Source: Brachyspira sp. G79 (GTDB taxonomy: Bacteria; Spirochaetota; Brachyspiria; Brachyspirales; Brachyspiraceae). From it: a stretch of 45,474 bases of DNA. The notes below the pieces were generated by a model, which was not told the DNA's origin, ran no database searches, and was given only the letters and a program-made list of their open reading frames with translations. The translations under genes were made by a program, and so were the position numbers. The stretch spans positions 1,621,185 through 1,666,658 of the forward strand of contig NZ_JQIU01000008.1 of assembly GCF_002379365.1 (NCBI RefSeq), read 5' to 3'. Positions 29,390 to 35,432 of the stretch are shown piece by piece. How positions within the stretch are numbered: position 1 is the first letter of the stretch; every line of letters starts with the position of its first letter.

Positions 29390-29889
29390 TAAAAAATACA
29401 GTTTATCAAAAATTAGTTTTTATGTTTTTATTATTTTATGAAACTAGCCCTGCGAATCACACAGTCGCGTGCCTTTGTCAAAAACTTTGACTAAGCCATG
29501 CAAAAAAGTTATAATTCTGTATAATGTGCAGCAATTGACAAAATAAAATTGTTCCAGTATATATTTAAACAAATATGATTTGTCAGTTTTAAGTTATTAA
29601 TAAATGTAATTATAAGTTATAAAAACATAAAGTATTATTAGTTGTTAATAACATAAGTTTTATAAGTTATAAATGTAAAATAAATAATTTATTTTTTATA
29701 ATAATAGGTAATCAGCAGCATACCATCACCACAGGCGGACTTCGTCTCGGGTACTTCCTCACTTCGTTCAGTCGCGTTGACATTTGATAAGAATAAACAA
29801 TACCGTGCGGGAAGGTGCACGCGAAGCGTCCCGAACGAAGATGAGGGGGAGCTCGCTGTTGACAAACTTAAAAATTTTCAGTATATAAT
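29390..29889. repeat. Two abutting inverted-repeat elements upstream of rtcB
   Basis: The first element (about 29390-29571) ends in TTGACA-17-TATATA, where the -35 hexamer follows GCAGCAA. The second starts at once (TTAAACAAATATGATTTGTCA, in two parts 29573-29593) and ends with TTGACA-17-TATATA at 29859-29887. Between them is AT-rich sequence and then an unusually G+C-rich patch (29730-29856: CTTCGTCTCGGGTACTTCC, GCGAAGCGTCCCGAACG). The open frame through this patch into rtcB is an accident. Bases 29163-29389 hold nothing recognisable. Confidence 0.55.
29859..29889 (+). promoter_or_regulatory. Promoter for rtcB carried by a repeat-element end
   Basis: A perfect TTGACA (29859-29864), 17 bases and TATATA (29882-29887; TATAAT at 29884-29889) lie about 70 bases before the rtcB ATG. 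The same bases are the terminal repeat of the element ending here. Confidence 0.55.
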
Positions 29890-29956
29890 AATGACAATTT
29901 CTGACATTATAATAATTTATGATATTATTAATAATAAAAGTAAGGAGTATACCTTT

Positions 29957-31221
29957 ATGATAGAACTAAAAGGAAAATACAACAAAGATTGCAAAATATT
30001 TACTGATAATGTTGATGAAGAATCTTATTCATTAATTTATAATATTTTAAATGAAAAAGCAAGCGAAAATGTTAAAGTTAGGATAATGCCAGACACTCAT
30101 ATTGGAAAGGGTATAGTGATAGGTTTTACAATGCCTTTAACGGACAGAGTAAATCCTTTTCATATAGGCGTTGATATAGGATGCGGAATGCTTACTTCAA
30201 AATTAAATGATAATATCAAAAATATTGAGCTTGAAAAAATTGATAAAACTATAAAACAAAATATTCCTATGGGTGTTAAAACTCATAAAAAAAGTAATTA
30301 TTCATTTTTTAATTTCAAAGAATTAAATGAAATTATGAGAAACTTTATAATTGCTTATAATAAAAGATATAATACAGACTTTGCACTCTTTGAAATAGAT
30401 AATGACTATATAGAAAAATTATGCCAAAGAATAGAAATGGATTTAGAAAAGTTTCATAACTCTATTGGAACATTAGGAGGAGGAAATCATTTTATAGAGA
30501 TAGGAAGTTCAATAAATAATGATTACTTTCTTACTATACATTCAGGATCAAGAAATTTCGGTACAATGGTATGCCAATATCATGTAAGAAAAAATAAAAA
30601 AGAATAGAAGAAGCAAAAGATTTTTTTAATAGTGTAAATGATACTAATGATAAAACAACAAAAGAATATAATGAGTATAATGAAATAGTAAGAAGCGGAG
30701 ATTATATATATGGCAAAGCTATGTTTGACTACTGCATTGACATGGTAATAGCTCAGTATTATGCCAAAATCAATCGAGAGGCTATGCTTAACATTATAAA
30801 AGATTCTCTTAATATAAAATTAGAAGATACTTTTTCATCTATACATAATTTTATAGATTTTGAAGATTTTATAATAAGAAAAGGTGCTATAAGAAGTTAT
30901 AAGGGAGAAAAAATGATAATTCCTTTTAACATGCGTGACGGTATATTAATATGCGAAGGAAAAAGTAATGAAGATTGGAATTTTTCAGCACCTCATGGAG
31001 CTGGAAGAGTACTTTCAAGAATGCAGGCAAGAAAACAAATAGAGATGAAAGATTTTATAGAATCTATGAAAGGTATTTATTCAAGCAGCATATCAAAAAA
31101 TACTTTAGATGAAGCACCACAGGCATATAAAGATTCAAAGGAAATAGAAAAATTAATAATGCCTACAGCAGATATAATAGACAGATTAAAGCCTGTATTA
31201 AATATAAAAGCTGCTTCATAA
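29957..31221 (+). pseudogene. rtcB: RtcB-family RNA ligase, one-base frameshift
   Basis: RtcB joins RNA 2',3'-cyclic phosphate ends to 5'-OH ends with GTP and Mn2+. ATG 29957 follows TAAGGAG. First part: MPDTHIGKGIVIGFTMP, GVDIGCGM with its metal-binding Cys, GTLGGGNHFIEIG, and HSGSRNFG; stop at 30605. The second part, in another frame from about 30598, runs IEEAKDFFNSV to KPVLNIKAAS and holds SAPHGAGRVLSR, whose His is the guanylylation site. One extra A in the run 30596-30601 joins them into a 421-residue protein of normal domain order. Split as read, neither half could work. The intact motifs on both sides suggest a very recent change or a base-calling error. No RNA-cyclase gene is adjacent. 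Confidence 0.8.
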
Positions 31222-31643: not shown

Positions 31644-32378
31644 TTAATTCAGAAGTTCTCTTAATTTTTTTATGTCCTCAGTATTTTCGTACGGATCTTC
31701 TTCATCGACATAATCCAAAAGATCAGTAGTTAAACCCAATGTATTAACTAAATATTCGAATACTTCTATATTCCCATACAAATAAGCTATATCAAGTCCA
31801 TTCTCATTAAGGCTAGATATAGAATCAACTAAATCAGAGTCAAAATCTACAATCATCTTTATTATATCAACATTTCCGAAACCGCAAGCAAGTAAAAATA
31901 CATTCCGTCCATGTTCATCTTGAATAATATTAGGATCAGCACCATTATCAAGCAAATATTTCATTATACCTAAATCCCTATAAAATACTGCAAACATTAA
32001 AGGAGTAGCTCCATCAAGATAATAATCATAATTAAGAACCTCACTATATTTTCTGCCGCCTCTGTAAGTATGACCTATATCATTGCCTTCTGCTATTAAT
32101 TCCCGAACTCTTTTTAAACTATGATTTTCTATAGCTTCAAATATATCATAATCTTCACTGTATTCTCCTTCCTCTCTGTTTACGTAAGAGAAAGCAGAAT
32201 TCATATTAACAAATTTACCATGAATCTTTACAATATTTGTATATACTGCATGATATATATTTTCTGGAGAACTCACATATGAAGTATTTCCTCCTATACC
32301 TACACTTGCTTCTTCTTTCTTTTTACATGAAATAATAAAAATAATTAATAGCAAAGAAATTAATAATATCTTTTTCAT
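31644..32378 (-). CDS. Ankyrin-repeat lipoprotein
   Basis: I start at the second ATG (32378), since GGCGG at a normal distance precedes it. The protein has 244 residues. MKKILLISLLLIIFIISCKKK is a lipoprotein signal with lipobox IISC. The mature part carries about four ankyrin repeats, best seen at GATPLMFAVFYRDLGIMKYL with LDNGADPNI and at GRNVFLLACGFGNVDIIKMI. It would be a membrane-anchored protein-binding scaffold outside the cytoplasm. The partner is unknown. It is the second ankyrin gene in the window, here with its signal intact. No operon partners. Confidence 0.78.
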   Translation of the reverse strand: MKKILLISLLLIIFIISCKKKEEASVGIGGNTSYVSSPENIYHAVYTNIVKIHGKFVNMNSAFSYVNREEGEYSEDYDIFEAIENHSLKRVRELIAEGNDIGHTYRGGRKYSEVLNYDYYLDGATPLMFAVFYRDLGIMKYLLDNGADPNIIQDEHGRNVFLLACGFGNVDIIKMIVDFDSDLVDSISSLNENGLDIAYLYGNIEVFEYLVNTLGLTTDLLDYVDEEDPYENTEDIKKLRELLN

Positions 32379-32683
32379 AAATACCGCCATATAGTAAATT
32401 GATAATTTATAAAGTATAATACAATAAAAACAAATTATTTTCTATTATTAATAATAAAAAATTGTGAAATAAGTTTTTATAAATAAACGAACATAGAAAA
32501 ATACAAAAATATAAGTAATATAATAAAATACAAACATACATGGCATAGCTGGCATTATAGTGTATTTTAAAAATTAGATATACCATTTTTAGATAAAATT
32601 TTATTATTTAATGCTGATTCTATAGTTTTAGATAATATAAAAGCCTCTTAAATACAAATATATAAAAAATGATTAAATTACTA

Positions 32684-32712
32684 TTGAAAATAATTATATA
32701 TTGTTATATACT
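32684..32712 (+). promoter_or_regulatory. Promoter of the metY leader
   Basis: TTGAAA (32684-32689), 17 bases and TATACT (32707-32712) lie 37 bases before the leader-peptide ATG. The expected transcript starts near 32719 and would carry an untranslated region of about 210 bases before metY. The remainder of 32391-32683 is AT-rich with no supported feature. Confidence 0.55.
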
Positions 32713-32748
32713 GTAAAAAATAAGATTTAATTTTAGGAATTATAAAGA

Positions 32749-32829
32749 ATGAAATCAATCATCGTTATGAATCAAATGCACTGCCTCATGCAAATGTGTA
32801 TGTTTAATAATGATGGCTGTATAATATAA
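32749..32829 (+). CDS. Methionine-rich leader peptide of metY
   Basis: This is a 26-codon ORF with AGGA (32735-32738) ten bases before the ATG. Six of 26 codons are ATG, five of them crowded into codons 7-18 (7, 10, 14, 16 and 18: MNQMHCLMQMCM); Cys codons are at 12, 17 and 24. Such a cluster is far above what a short random AT-rich ORF would show. The Met codons lie in the loop of the first hairpin, and the last codons (GAT GGC TGT) form the antiterminator arm. The peptide itself is probably inert. The ribosome translating it would sense charged Met-tRNA, or possibly Cys-tRNA. No homologue is known to me. Confidence 0.7.
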   Translation: MKSIIVMNQMHCLMQMCMFNNDGCII

Positions 32830-32890
32830 TATATTTTTTATTTTGTAATTTCAGCCGTCAAATTAATTTTTGGCGGCTTTTTTATTTTTA
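32759..32890 (+). promoter_or_regulatory. Transcription attenuator upstream of metY
   Basis: Three pairings compete. Stem 1:2 joins 32760-32768 (CATCGTTAT) with 32807-32815 (ATAATGATG), nine pairs including one G-U. Stem 2:3 (antiterminator) joins 32811-32819 (TGATGGCTG) with 32852-32860 (CAGCCGTCA), nine pairs with one G-U. Stem 3:4 (terminator) joins 32853-32862 (AGCCGTCAAA) with 32869-32878 (TTTGGCGGCT is the relevant arm), ten pairs followed by TTTTTT-A-TTTTT. A ribosome stalled on the Met cluster would cover arm 1 and free arm 2 to block the terminator. A ribosome reaching the stop at 32827 would cover arm 2 and let it form. Confidence 0.72.
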
Positions 32891-32927
32891 AAATTAAATT
32901 TTTATGAAAAATCATAAAGGAGAGTAT

Positions 32928-34223
32928 ATGTCAAGAGAACTAAAGTTTGAAACAATAGCAGCACATGCAGGTCAGGATTTTGATGATAAGTTCGCAAGCA
33001 GAGGAGTACCAGTATACAGAACAACTTCGTATTTATTTAGAAATTCTAAACATGCAGCAGATTTATTTGATTTAAAAGAACTTGGATATATATATTCAAG
33101 AATGGGAGATCCTACAACCGATGTACTAGAAAAAAGAATTACCGCTATGGAAGGAGGACTTGCTTCTATTGCTGTATCTTCTGGTACTAATGCAATATTT
33201 TATACTATAATTACAATATGCGAGGCTGGAGATGAAATAGTTTCTGCATTTAATGTTTATGGTGGAACATATTCTCAGTTTGGGGCAATACTTCCAAAGT
33301 TTGGTATTAATACAAAATTTGTTGATGCCAAAAATCCAGAAAACTTTGCTAAGGCTATTACTGATAAAACAAAATTAATATTTATAGAAACAATATCAAA
33401 TCCTTCGCTTGATTTTACAGATATTGAAAAAGTAGCTGAAATAGCTCATAATTCTGGAATACCTCTTGTAATAGACGGTACTTTTACAACTCCTTATCTT
33501 TTGCAGACTATTAAACATGGTGCTGATATTGTAATAAACTCTCTTACAAAATGGATAGGCGGACATGGAAATGCTATAGGGGGCATTATTACTGACAGCG
33601 GTAATTTTAATTGGCAAAGCGATAAGTTTCCTTTATTTTCAAAACCAGACTCAAATTATCATGGACTTCGATGGGCTTATGATTTGCCTGATGAACTTAA
33701 AAATGCTGCTTTTGCTTTGAGAGTAAGAACAGTACCTCTTAGAAATTTGGGAGCTTGTCTTTCAGCTGATAATTCTTGGATATTTATTCAGGGTACAGAA
33801 TCTTTATCTCTAAGAATGGAAAGACATTCGTATAATGCTTTAAAAGTTGCTGAGTTCTTAGAAAAAGATAATAGAGTTGAGTGGGTAAGATACCCTGGTC
33901 TAAAAAATGATCCTTCATATGCTTTGGCAAGCAAATATTTAAAAGATAAATTCGGCGGAATGGTTGTATTTGGCATTAAAGGTGGATATGATGCTGCTGT
34001 TAAATTTATAGACAACATAAAACTATTCTCTCATTTAGTTAATGTAGGAGACGTAAAAAGTTTAGTTGCTCACCCTGCTTCTACTACACACTCTCAATTA
34101 TCAGAAGAAGAATTAATAAAGGGCGGAATAAGCAAAAACTTTATAAGGCTTTCTATAGGAATAGAACATATTGATGATATACTCTATTATTTAGATGAAG
34201 CTTTAACTATAGCAAGCAAATAA
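32928..34223 (+). CDS. metY: O-acetylhomoserine sulfhydrylase
   Basis: It makes homocysteine from O-acetylhomoserine and sulfide with PLP. I start at ATG 32928 behind the strong AAAGGAGAG site; the in-frame ATG at 32904 has none. The protein has 431 residues, the usual length for MetY (about 430), and longer than cystathionine-type relatives. Motifs: FETIAAHAGQ, RTTSYLFRN, YIYSRMGDPTTDVLEKR (phosphate site), ETISNPSLDF, NSLTKWIGGHG with the PLP lysine, and SHLVNVGDVKSLVAHPASTTH. It is expressed from a leader with Met-rich attenuator and is followed by a terminator before metX. Confidence 0.94.
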   Translation: MSRELKFETIAAHAGQDFDDKFASRGVPVYRTTSYLFRNSKHAADLFDLKELGYIYSRMGDPTTDVLEKRITAMEGGLASIAVSSGTNAIFYTIITICEAGDEIVSAFNVYGGTYSQFGAILPKFGINTKFVDAKNPENFAKAITDKTKLIFIETISNPSLDFTDIEKVAEIAHNSGIPLVIDGTFTTPYLLQTIKHGADIVINSLTKWIGGHGNAIGGIITDSGNFNWQSDKFPLFSKPDSNYHGLRWAYDLPDELKNAAFALRVRTVPLRNLGACLSADNSWIFIQGTESLSLRMERHSYNALKVAEFLEKDNRVEWVRYPGLKNDPSYALASKYLKDKFGGMVVFGIKGGYDAAVKFIDNIKLFSHLVNVGDVKSLVAHPASTTHSQLSEEELIKGGISKNFIRLSIGIEHIDDILYYLDEALTIASK

Positions 34224-34302: not shown

Positions 34303-35432
34303 ATGGAGAATATAAAAAATATAATAAAAGATAAAAAAAATAAAATTAAAGAACAAATCAATAAAATCGAAGAAACTATAATAGAAGAGAAAGGTAATCT
34401 TAAATTTTTTCACTATGATAAATCATTTAAATTTGAAAATGGAGCTTCTATATCAGAGCTTACAATAGCTTATACTGCCTCAGGACATTTAAATATTAAT
34501 AGGGATAATGCTATTTTAATATGCCATGCCTTTACAGGTGATGCAGATGTACTTTCTTGGTGGAGTAATTTTGTAGGCAAATGCAAAGCAATAGATACTA
34601 ATAAATATTTTGTCATATGTTCAAATGTGTTAGGAGGCTGCAGCGGAACCACAGGACCTTCCTCAAAAAAACCAAATAGTAATTTATGCTACGGGACAGA
34701 TTTTCCTACATTTACAATTAAAGATATAGTAAAGGTACAAAAAATATTAGTAGATTCATTAGGTATAAAAAAACTTTACTGTGTAGTAGGAGGCTCTATG
34801 GGAGGAATGCAGGCTTTGCAATGGACTGCTTCTTATCCTCAAATGATGGAAAAAGCAATTATAATAGCAAGCACAATGACACATTCGCCTATGCAGATAG
34901 CTTTTAATGAAATAGCAAGAGAAGCTATAACAGAAGACAATGAATGGTACGGCGGAAAATATTATGGAATGTCCTCTCCAGATAAAGGCCTTGCTTTGGC
35001 CAGAATGCTTGGACATATTACATATATGAGTGAAGAATATATGAGAAAAAAATTCGGAAGAAGAAGAAAAAAGGCATTAAAATATTTTACTCCTTCTTTT
35101 GAAGTAGAAAATTATCTTCATTACAATGGAGAGAAATTTACAGCTAGATTTGATGCTAACAGTTTCTTATATCTTACTAAAGCTATGGATTTTTTTGATG
35201 CTAAAGATGATATAAAAAAATTAAAAATAAGAAAAATGTATCTCTTAATAAAGTACTTGTTATATCATTTATATCTGATTGGCTATATCCTAGTACTCAG
35301 TCAGCTGAAATAGTTTCCGCATATCAGCATGCTAATATAGACACTTTATTTTATGAAATAGAATCCAATTACGGACATGATGCTTTTTTAATAAAAAATA
35401 CTGAACAAACTAAATGTATAAAAAATTTTTAA
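34303..35432 (+). pseudogene. metX: Homoserine O-acetyltransferase, one-base frameshift
   Basis: An alpha/beta-hydrolase-fold enzyme that acetylates homoserine to feed MetY. An AGGGG site precedes ATG 34303. Visible: ICHAFTGDADV, GGCSGTTGPSS, the nucleophile elbow VVGGSMGGMQALQW, and FTARFDANSFLYLTKAMD. The frame stops at 35313, before the last two catalytic residues. These are present in the next frame: VISFISDWLYPSTQSAE (catalytic Asp) and ESNYGHDAFLI (catalytic His), ending at 35432. One extra A in the A7 run at 35214-35220 or the A5 run at 35232-35236 restores a protein of about 376 residues. As read it would be inactive. An error or very recent mutation is likely. Confidence 0.82.

Follow-up and report, generated by a model that had tools for sequence, protein, structure and literature searches.

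The window analysed here, a stretch of 45,474 nucleotides from Brachyspira sp. G79, carries metY and metX on the plus strand, preceded by a leader region. The parts of this region are the following.

32684..32712, + strand: sigma-70-type promoter, TTGAAA, 17 nt, TATACT; also conserved in the alignment of relatives
32733..32738, + strand: likely Shine-Dalgarno sequence TTAGGA of the leader ORF, read off the sequence
32749..32829, + strand: leader peptide ORF of 26 codons, encoding MKSIIVMNQMHCLMQMCMFNNDGCII*, with the stop codon at 32827
32759..32768, + strand: arm 1 of the protector stem 1:2 (10 pairs with 32807-32816)
32782..32796, + strand: core of the leader ORF, TGC CTC ATG CAA ATG, i.e. 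Cys-Leu-Met-Gln-Met
32807..32816, + strand: arm 2, in the register that pairs with arm 1
32812..32819, + strand: arm 2, in the antiterminator register that pairs with arm 3, GATGGCTG (8 pairs with 32852-32859)
32852..32859, + strand: arm 3, CAGCCGTC, common to antiterminator and terminator
32853..32883, + strand: intrinsic terminator 3:4 and T-run (32853-32862 with 32869-32878, 10 pairs)
32928..34223, + strand: metY, O-acetylhomoserine sulfhydrylase (TIGR01326, 601 bits, cut-off 495)
34303..35313, + strand: metX, homoserine O-acetyltransferase, with a reading-frame shift close to the 3' terminus in this strain

The leader ORF has internal Met codons at positions 7, 10, 14, 16 and 18, and Cys codons at 12, 17 and 24. 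A sequence-only reading of the window had already pointed to a 26-codon ORF with five internal Met between codons 7 and 18, to three overlapping arms, a terminator and a promoter; all of these are confirmed, with coordinates right to a base or two. The transcription start of the leader probably lies near 32719.

In terms of chance expectation, an ATG-started ORF of 12-40 codons with at least five internal ATGs appeared in 8 of 20,000 first-order Markov resamplings of a 250-nt region. The window leader is enriched in Met (5 of 25 codons vs a background of 2.6%, P = 4e-4). One terminator-like site is observed in 32400-33000, against a shuffle mean of 0.0 (sd 0.3), and the fold of the 182-nt leader has a z of -4.7, with 0 of 200 shuffles being equally good. 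Promoter matches in this AT-rich region are close to expectation (9 observed vs 7.5 expected from shuffles); the TTGAAA/TATACT one is conserved in relatives.

As for the neighbouring genes, the frame shift near the 3' end of metX belongs to the window strain, and the usual end is reached at the other 21 of the 22 metY-linked loci. An RtcB-like gene is apparently split into two ORFs (window positions 29777-30607 and 30721-31221), the 3' one giving RtcB profile matches below cut-off. The ORF at 31644-32390 on the minus strand is lipoprotein-like with repeats by eye, and its NCBIfam matches, ankyrin-type and others, are weak and far below cut-off.

Conservation and copies across Brachyspira

The genus sample comprises 26 Brachyspira genomes and the phylum sample 392 genomes. 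A metY of the window type is present in 22 of the 26 (82-100% identity), always with metX directly downstream, and the leader precedes it at all 22 loci. The alignment that had been suggested as a check shows that leader ORF, core Met codons, pairing arms, terminator and promoter are all conserved at 22/22 orthologous metY loci. In the remaining genomes, G001 and G003 have another type of metY (43% identity), G019 is without a close metY, and metY of G017 is a fragment with stops, whose leader has decayed along with it (61.7 bits vs 104-154 for intact metY leaders).

The promoter is recovered by a regular expression in 18 of the 22 leaders, and the other four have a -10 TATAAC in the alignment. 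Upstream of the leader ORF, a site of the AGGA/GGAG/AAGG type is found in 21 of 22, L024 being without; this Shine-Dalgarno-type site is unusually distant from the start codon in L022, L023, L025 and L026.

Upstream of arm 2, every one of the 22 metY leaders has 2-5 internal Met codons. Cys-Leu-Met-Gln is invariant (22/22) and the second core Met is present in 21, with the one leader lacking it reading MQK. The 12-nt core has two variable columns only, both at third codon positions (TGC 17, TGT 5; CTC 20, CTT 2). Start codon and core are separated by 30, 33 or 36 nt, in frame throughout. Over the 39 nt compared, the leader frame contains 0 stops vs 20 and 4 in the other two frames, and its mean BLOSUM score is 3.26 vs 2.64 and 2.60. 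With the frame kept to the core, triplet distances and no stops, the short ORF is conserved as an ORF, its translation being putative. Downstream of the core, the spacing is not kept to multiples of three, and L015-L017 and L022-L026 enter arm 2 in a different frame. Despite this change of frame, the leader stop codon ends 10-15 nt past the first base of GGCTG in 22/22 leaders, a constancy that is weak alone because AT-rich sequence readily gives stops past arm 2 in any frame.

A first covariance model was built from the 22 metY leaders and run over the 392 phylum genomes, with stricter filters under which weak copies could be missed. It recovers all 22, the decayed copy and five further Brachyspira copies (61.5-80.8 bits). 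Its matches fall in 25 Brachyspira genomes, plus two weak ones in G188 and G194, both rejected because they overlap an unrelated gene's end and terminator. Three of the five further copies are found before metNI (methionine transporter) and two before metX. The metNI copies, in G002, G018 and G020, start 225-254 nt upstream of an ABC transporter operon. MetN of G002, the one scanned, matches TIGR02314 best (398 bits, below the cut-off of 499.7) and has a NIL domain above the Pfam gathering score, while MetI of the same genome reaches 191 bits (cut-off 212). The metX copies belong to G001 and G003, i.e. to the genomes having the other-type metY, and the gene behind the G001 leader was scanned as MetX (PRK00175, 434 bits).

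A second model, run over the 26 genus genomes, gives 28 matches of at least 55.4 bits (27 intact, 1 decayed), followed by a gap down to 33.5. The weak tail consists of 50 matches at or below 33.5 bits (E up to 1). Eleven of these 50 were inspected and rejected: nine are gene-end terminators, one (L142) overlaps coding sequence and one (L145) belongs to an unrelated leader. Two of 23 core-pattern matches, L052 and L074, were also set aside, being away from metY and having surroundings that are not leader-like.

The core peptide reads CLMQM at metY, NSMQM or KSMQM at metNI and SMMQM at metX. ATG CAA is present in 27/27 intact leaders, and Met-Gln-Met in 26 of them. At metX, the part of both leaders that precedes arm 2 contains three Met codons and no Cys codon. 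Since metN is present in 26/26 Brachyspira genomes and the leader before it in 3 (upstream DNA covered by a script in 22 genomes, and by the model search in G001, G003, G015 and G023), the metNI copy appears to be lineage-specific. What stays constant in all copies is the presence of Met codons, the spacing between them and arm 2, and the methionine genes that follow; the leaders are best read as a small portable methionine regulon.

Outside the genus, we found no comparable leader upstream of 15 metY relatives (L047-L050, L075-L082, L083, L084, L087). Matches to metY at E 1e-100 or better occur in 259 of the 392 genomes, 24 of them Brachyspira and 235 outside the genus. A short ORF MMMRV... 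before L047 was rejected, as the DNA apparently runs, by eye, through a cysteine-synthase-like gene in another frame.

Other leader-like elements were seen along the way. Upstream of the non-orthologous metY of G003 (L027) and G001 (L028) lies another kind of leader ORF, whose peptide ends in ...SMMMRV(V/C)AR*. A GC-rich hairpin is located at its stop, and a clear terminator is absent; among the 392 phylum genomes, the SMMMRV-type pattern is limited to these two. The G001 leader may be a derived copy of the metX leader of the same genome, because its TTTTTCTATGATG-ATGCG resembles it. A second, unrelated leader-like element is located at L145 1277-1405 (in the window's own genome, G000:C8:2201076-2201204) before an antiporter-like gene, whose best NCBIfam matches, Tet(35)-type and NhaC, are both far below cut-off. 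This element combines an ORF MNNSFL..KK.K..F..WEC*, an arm TTGGGAG at the stop, an arm CTCCC(A/T)AA and a terminator. Such DNA (L174-L191) is present in 18 of the 26 genomes, with the ORF recovered in 14 of the 18 loci (WEC 13, WEY 1), and it is possibly another leader-peptide attenuator.

Stems, folding and ribosome geometry

Two structural features are found at the metY leaders: a protector stem 1:2 overlapping arm 2, and a mutually exclusive antiterminator and terminator with a common arm and a U-tract, 5' of the first gene, with the pairing conserved. Stem statistics were calculated on 19 distinct rows of metY leaders with 500 shuffles. The percentage of cells paired is 93.2% for 1:2, 91.4% for 2:3 and 99.5% for 3:4.

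Two-sided covariation, which the sequence-only reading had proposed to look for in the three stems, is thin. In stem 1:2, one pair is changed on both sides, in five of the 19 distinct rows and in one clade. Few shuffles reach the values of this stem (2/500 for cells paired, 2/500 for cells changed on both sides, 15/500 for the covariation score), while the count of two-sided changed pairs is not above shuffles (465/500 reach it). Stems 2:3 and 3:4 have no covariation signal, with 500/500 shuffles reaching every measure, because both are nearly invariant. If the 1:2 partner is slid by 3 columns, 76-81% of cells still pair, because the arms are near-repetitive. Furthermore, two of the ten 1:2 pairs are broken in all five of L022-L026, and the probability of the stem as defined here is 0.84-0.98 in L005-L021 vs 0.24-0.60 in L022-L026. 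The evidence for stem 1:2 is supportive, not strong.

Independently of any folding model, GGCTG lies 15-20 nt from the start of the last Met codon preceding arm 2 in 27/27 leaders; the distance from core to arm 2, unlike this spacing, varies between leaders. Folding of the 24 distinct leaders, with the RNA ending immediately 5' of arm 4, was then modelled with a ribosome placed at each codon in turn. With the downstream reach set at 14 nt, the permissive codons end at the last Met codon or no more than two codons past it in 23/24, and one codon before it in 1/24. With 13 nt they likewise end at the last Met codon or within two codons of it on the 3' side in 23/24. The geometry in which a stall frees arm 2 and the stop covers it is found in 24/24 leaders for a reach of 12 nt and in 23/24 for 13 and for 14 nt. 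When the reach is 16 nt, 13/24 leaders have their last Met codon past the permissive limit, vs 1/24 at 13 or 14 nt. In this model, the antiterminator could form with the ribosome at codons as far as roughly the last Met codon and no farther, the exact limit being footprint-dependent.

As for naked RNA, equilibrium folding of the full-length leader gives the terminator a probability of 1.00 in 22/22, and antitermination must therefore be kinetic. In untranslated RNA before arm 4, the probability of 2:3 goes from 0.01 to 0.99 depending on the species.

Proposed mechanism and its alternatives

The leader is very probably a ribosome-mediated transcription attenuator, sensing methionine supply via translation of a Met-rich leader peptide. 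It is best read as the classic attenuator type with a new amino-acid specificity and in a new lineage. The trp/his-type attenuator first suggested from the window's letters gains support from the 22/22 metY loci and from the copies at metNI and metX. We infer from the anatomy of the leaders that the switch would depend on methionine and on leader translation; the transcript itself, the translation of the ORF, the stalling and the methionine response are all predicted.

In the proposed mechanism, transcription would begin near 32719 and a ribosome would translate the leader. When Met-tRNA is plentiful, the ribosome would reach the stop at 32827 and cover arm 2; arm 3 would then pair with arm 4, leading to termination before metY-metX. 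When Met-tRNA is short, it would wait at Met codon 14 or 16, or at 18 where present. These codons follow arm 1 and precede the arm-2 GGCTG by 15-27 nt. With the ribosome waiting there, arm 2 would stay free to pair with arm 3, and RNA polymerase would read on.

A shortage of methionine would be expected to impair translation initiation on the leader as well. In addition, the invariant ATG CAA and the retained rare CTC (20/22) exceed what Met sensing alone explains, CTC being 2.4% of the Leu codons in the window's long ORFs, yet the Leu codon in 20/22 metY leaders. An elaborated scheme, which we regard as rather unlikely, is that the fixed Met-Gln core senses, that codon choice and the nascent peptide set the stall in a portable regulon, and that the initiation problem is possibly solved. 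The solution may be, for example, that untranslated RNA itself forms the antiterminator in several species.

A constraint on the core beyond the need of Met codons alone also favours another reading, to which we give a small probability: the invariant Met-Gln core (ATG CAA) would stall the ribosome by nascent-peptide or codon-context arrest, acting on the same downstream switch, with a metabolite such as homocysteine, O-acetylhomoserine or SAM as the trigger and not low Met-tRNA. In agreement with arrest, all 27 leaders keep ATG CAA, with CAA always used although CAG makes up 60% of the Gln codons in the window's long ORFs, and the metY leaders prefer the rare CTC. However, the residues preceding Met-Gln differ between the metY, metNI and metX copies, extra Met codons recur at varying positions, and one metY leader reads MQK.

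Sensing of cysteine, or of cysteine plus methionine, via the Cys codons is less probable again. The three Cys codons that had been taken to leave room for it are there; all 22 metY leaders keep Cys at codon 12 or its counterpart, 10 of them have another Cys codon before arm 2, and each of the three metNI leaders contains two or three. MetY uses sulfide. The idea is weakened because the two metX leaders are without a Cys codon upstream of arm 2, where they have three Met, and the module is also found 5' of a methionine-transporter operon.

Improbable too, and slightly behind it, is a new riboswitch, in which a conserved hairpin TTTGC-CTCAT-GCAAA would belong to a ligand-binding aptamer and be merely ORF-like. 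Nucleotide conservation is high, a short hairpin around the core is possible by eye in other metY leaders, and TTTGC...GCAAA occurs again in two of the three metNI copies. Against an aptamer, the variation within the 12-nt core is limited to two third codon positions and start-to-core distances are multiples of three. Two of the hairpin pairs are broken in the window's own copy, the metNI copies have another loop, and the metX copies do not preserve the hairpin. A related candidate, the core hairpin as a synthetase-binding operator whose CTCAT would mimic what we take to be the tRNA-Met anticodon loop, was rejected: two of 22 metY leaders read CTT ATG, and the metNI and metX copies are without CTC.

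Finally, an ordinary upstream terminator or small RNA gene, with metY unregulated, is hardly credible: a terminator alone could end an upstream transcript, but this one has its own promoter, keeps an antiterminator arm and a leader ORF, stands in the same place at 22/22 metY loci and is found again at methionine loci of two further kinds.

Relation to known systems and meaning for Brachyspira

SAM riboswitches, T-boxes or repressors are the controls usually reported for methionine genes. The SAM riboswitch RF00162 and the T-box RF00230, known RNA switches of methionine genes, match 0/26 Brachyspira genomes, with 3/14 and 5/14 control genomes matched, respectively. At gathering score, Rfam has no match in the window, a scan that covered the other SAM riboswitch classes.

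The trp, his and leu attenuators of Proteobacteria have their own promoter, a short leader ORF rich in the relevant amino acid, 1:2, 2:3 and 3:4 alternatives and a terminator before the operon. The Brachyspira leader resembles them in its promoter, Met-rich short ORF, three alternative pairings and terminator just 5' of the operon. It differs in having methionine as the amino acid and a spirochaete as the host. Its key Met codons, furthermore, lie in the 1:2 loop, 15-27 nt before GGCTG, with no tight run, and the sensed amino acid also starts the leader.

Within the open-licence literature, we found no methionine leader-peptide attenuator that is complete in its parts and has comparative support; the 2010 survey of Lopatovskaya and colleagues, reportedly a comparative survey of attenuators, is outside this scope. 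The earlier statement that no such leader was known in spirochaetes stands within the same literature, with the addition that a methionine leader has been proposed in Streptomyces lividans (PMC8079986). This is metL of strain TK24, located before metNIQ and encoding the peptide MSTTSDRTPATEATTTPGARCMCRRMCAF (PMC8079986). Like the Brachyspira leaders, it contains Met and precedes methionine genes, with a transporter as target as in the three metNI copies. Unlike them, its transcript is leaderless, the authors state that a typical Rho-independent structure is missing, and comparative support is absent from what PMC8079986 reports on metL. Judged from that report, metL appears to be the nearest methionine precedent.

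Leader-peptide systems are discussed in parts of PMC2965389 and PMC1262725. The latter describes actinobacterial cys operons having leader ORFs with runs of Cys codons, those of Mycobacterium being without a conserved terminator hairpin in that account; as sulfur amino-acid leader peptides, these are like the Brachyspira leader. The metXZ RNA element of beta-proteobacteria is a candidate terminator/antiterminator before metX or metZ, and unlike the Brachyspira leader it has six conserved regions and a possible pseudoknot (PMC4239095); the term "leader peptide" is absent from the main text of that paper. The Pelagibacter motif before metY is presented as a simple pseudoknot (PMC2704228). In the Xanthomonas met 5'UTR, the methionine response is reported as mainly translational, with a smaller transcriptional effect (PMC6230763).

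With the leader read as a methionine-sensing attenuator, the genes behind it appear to switch on when methionine runs short, and copies stand before other methionine genes in related species. Brachyspira, a genus of gut spirochaetes without a match to RF00162 or RF00230, would thereby have a control that is specific to methionine synthesis, extends to uptake in some species and can be tested. It also raises the question of how methionine can be sensed by translation while methionine is needed to start that same translation.
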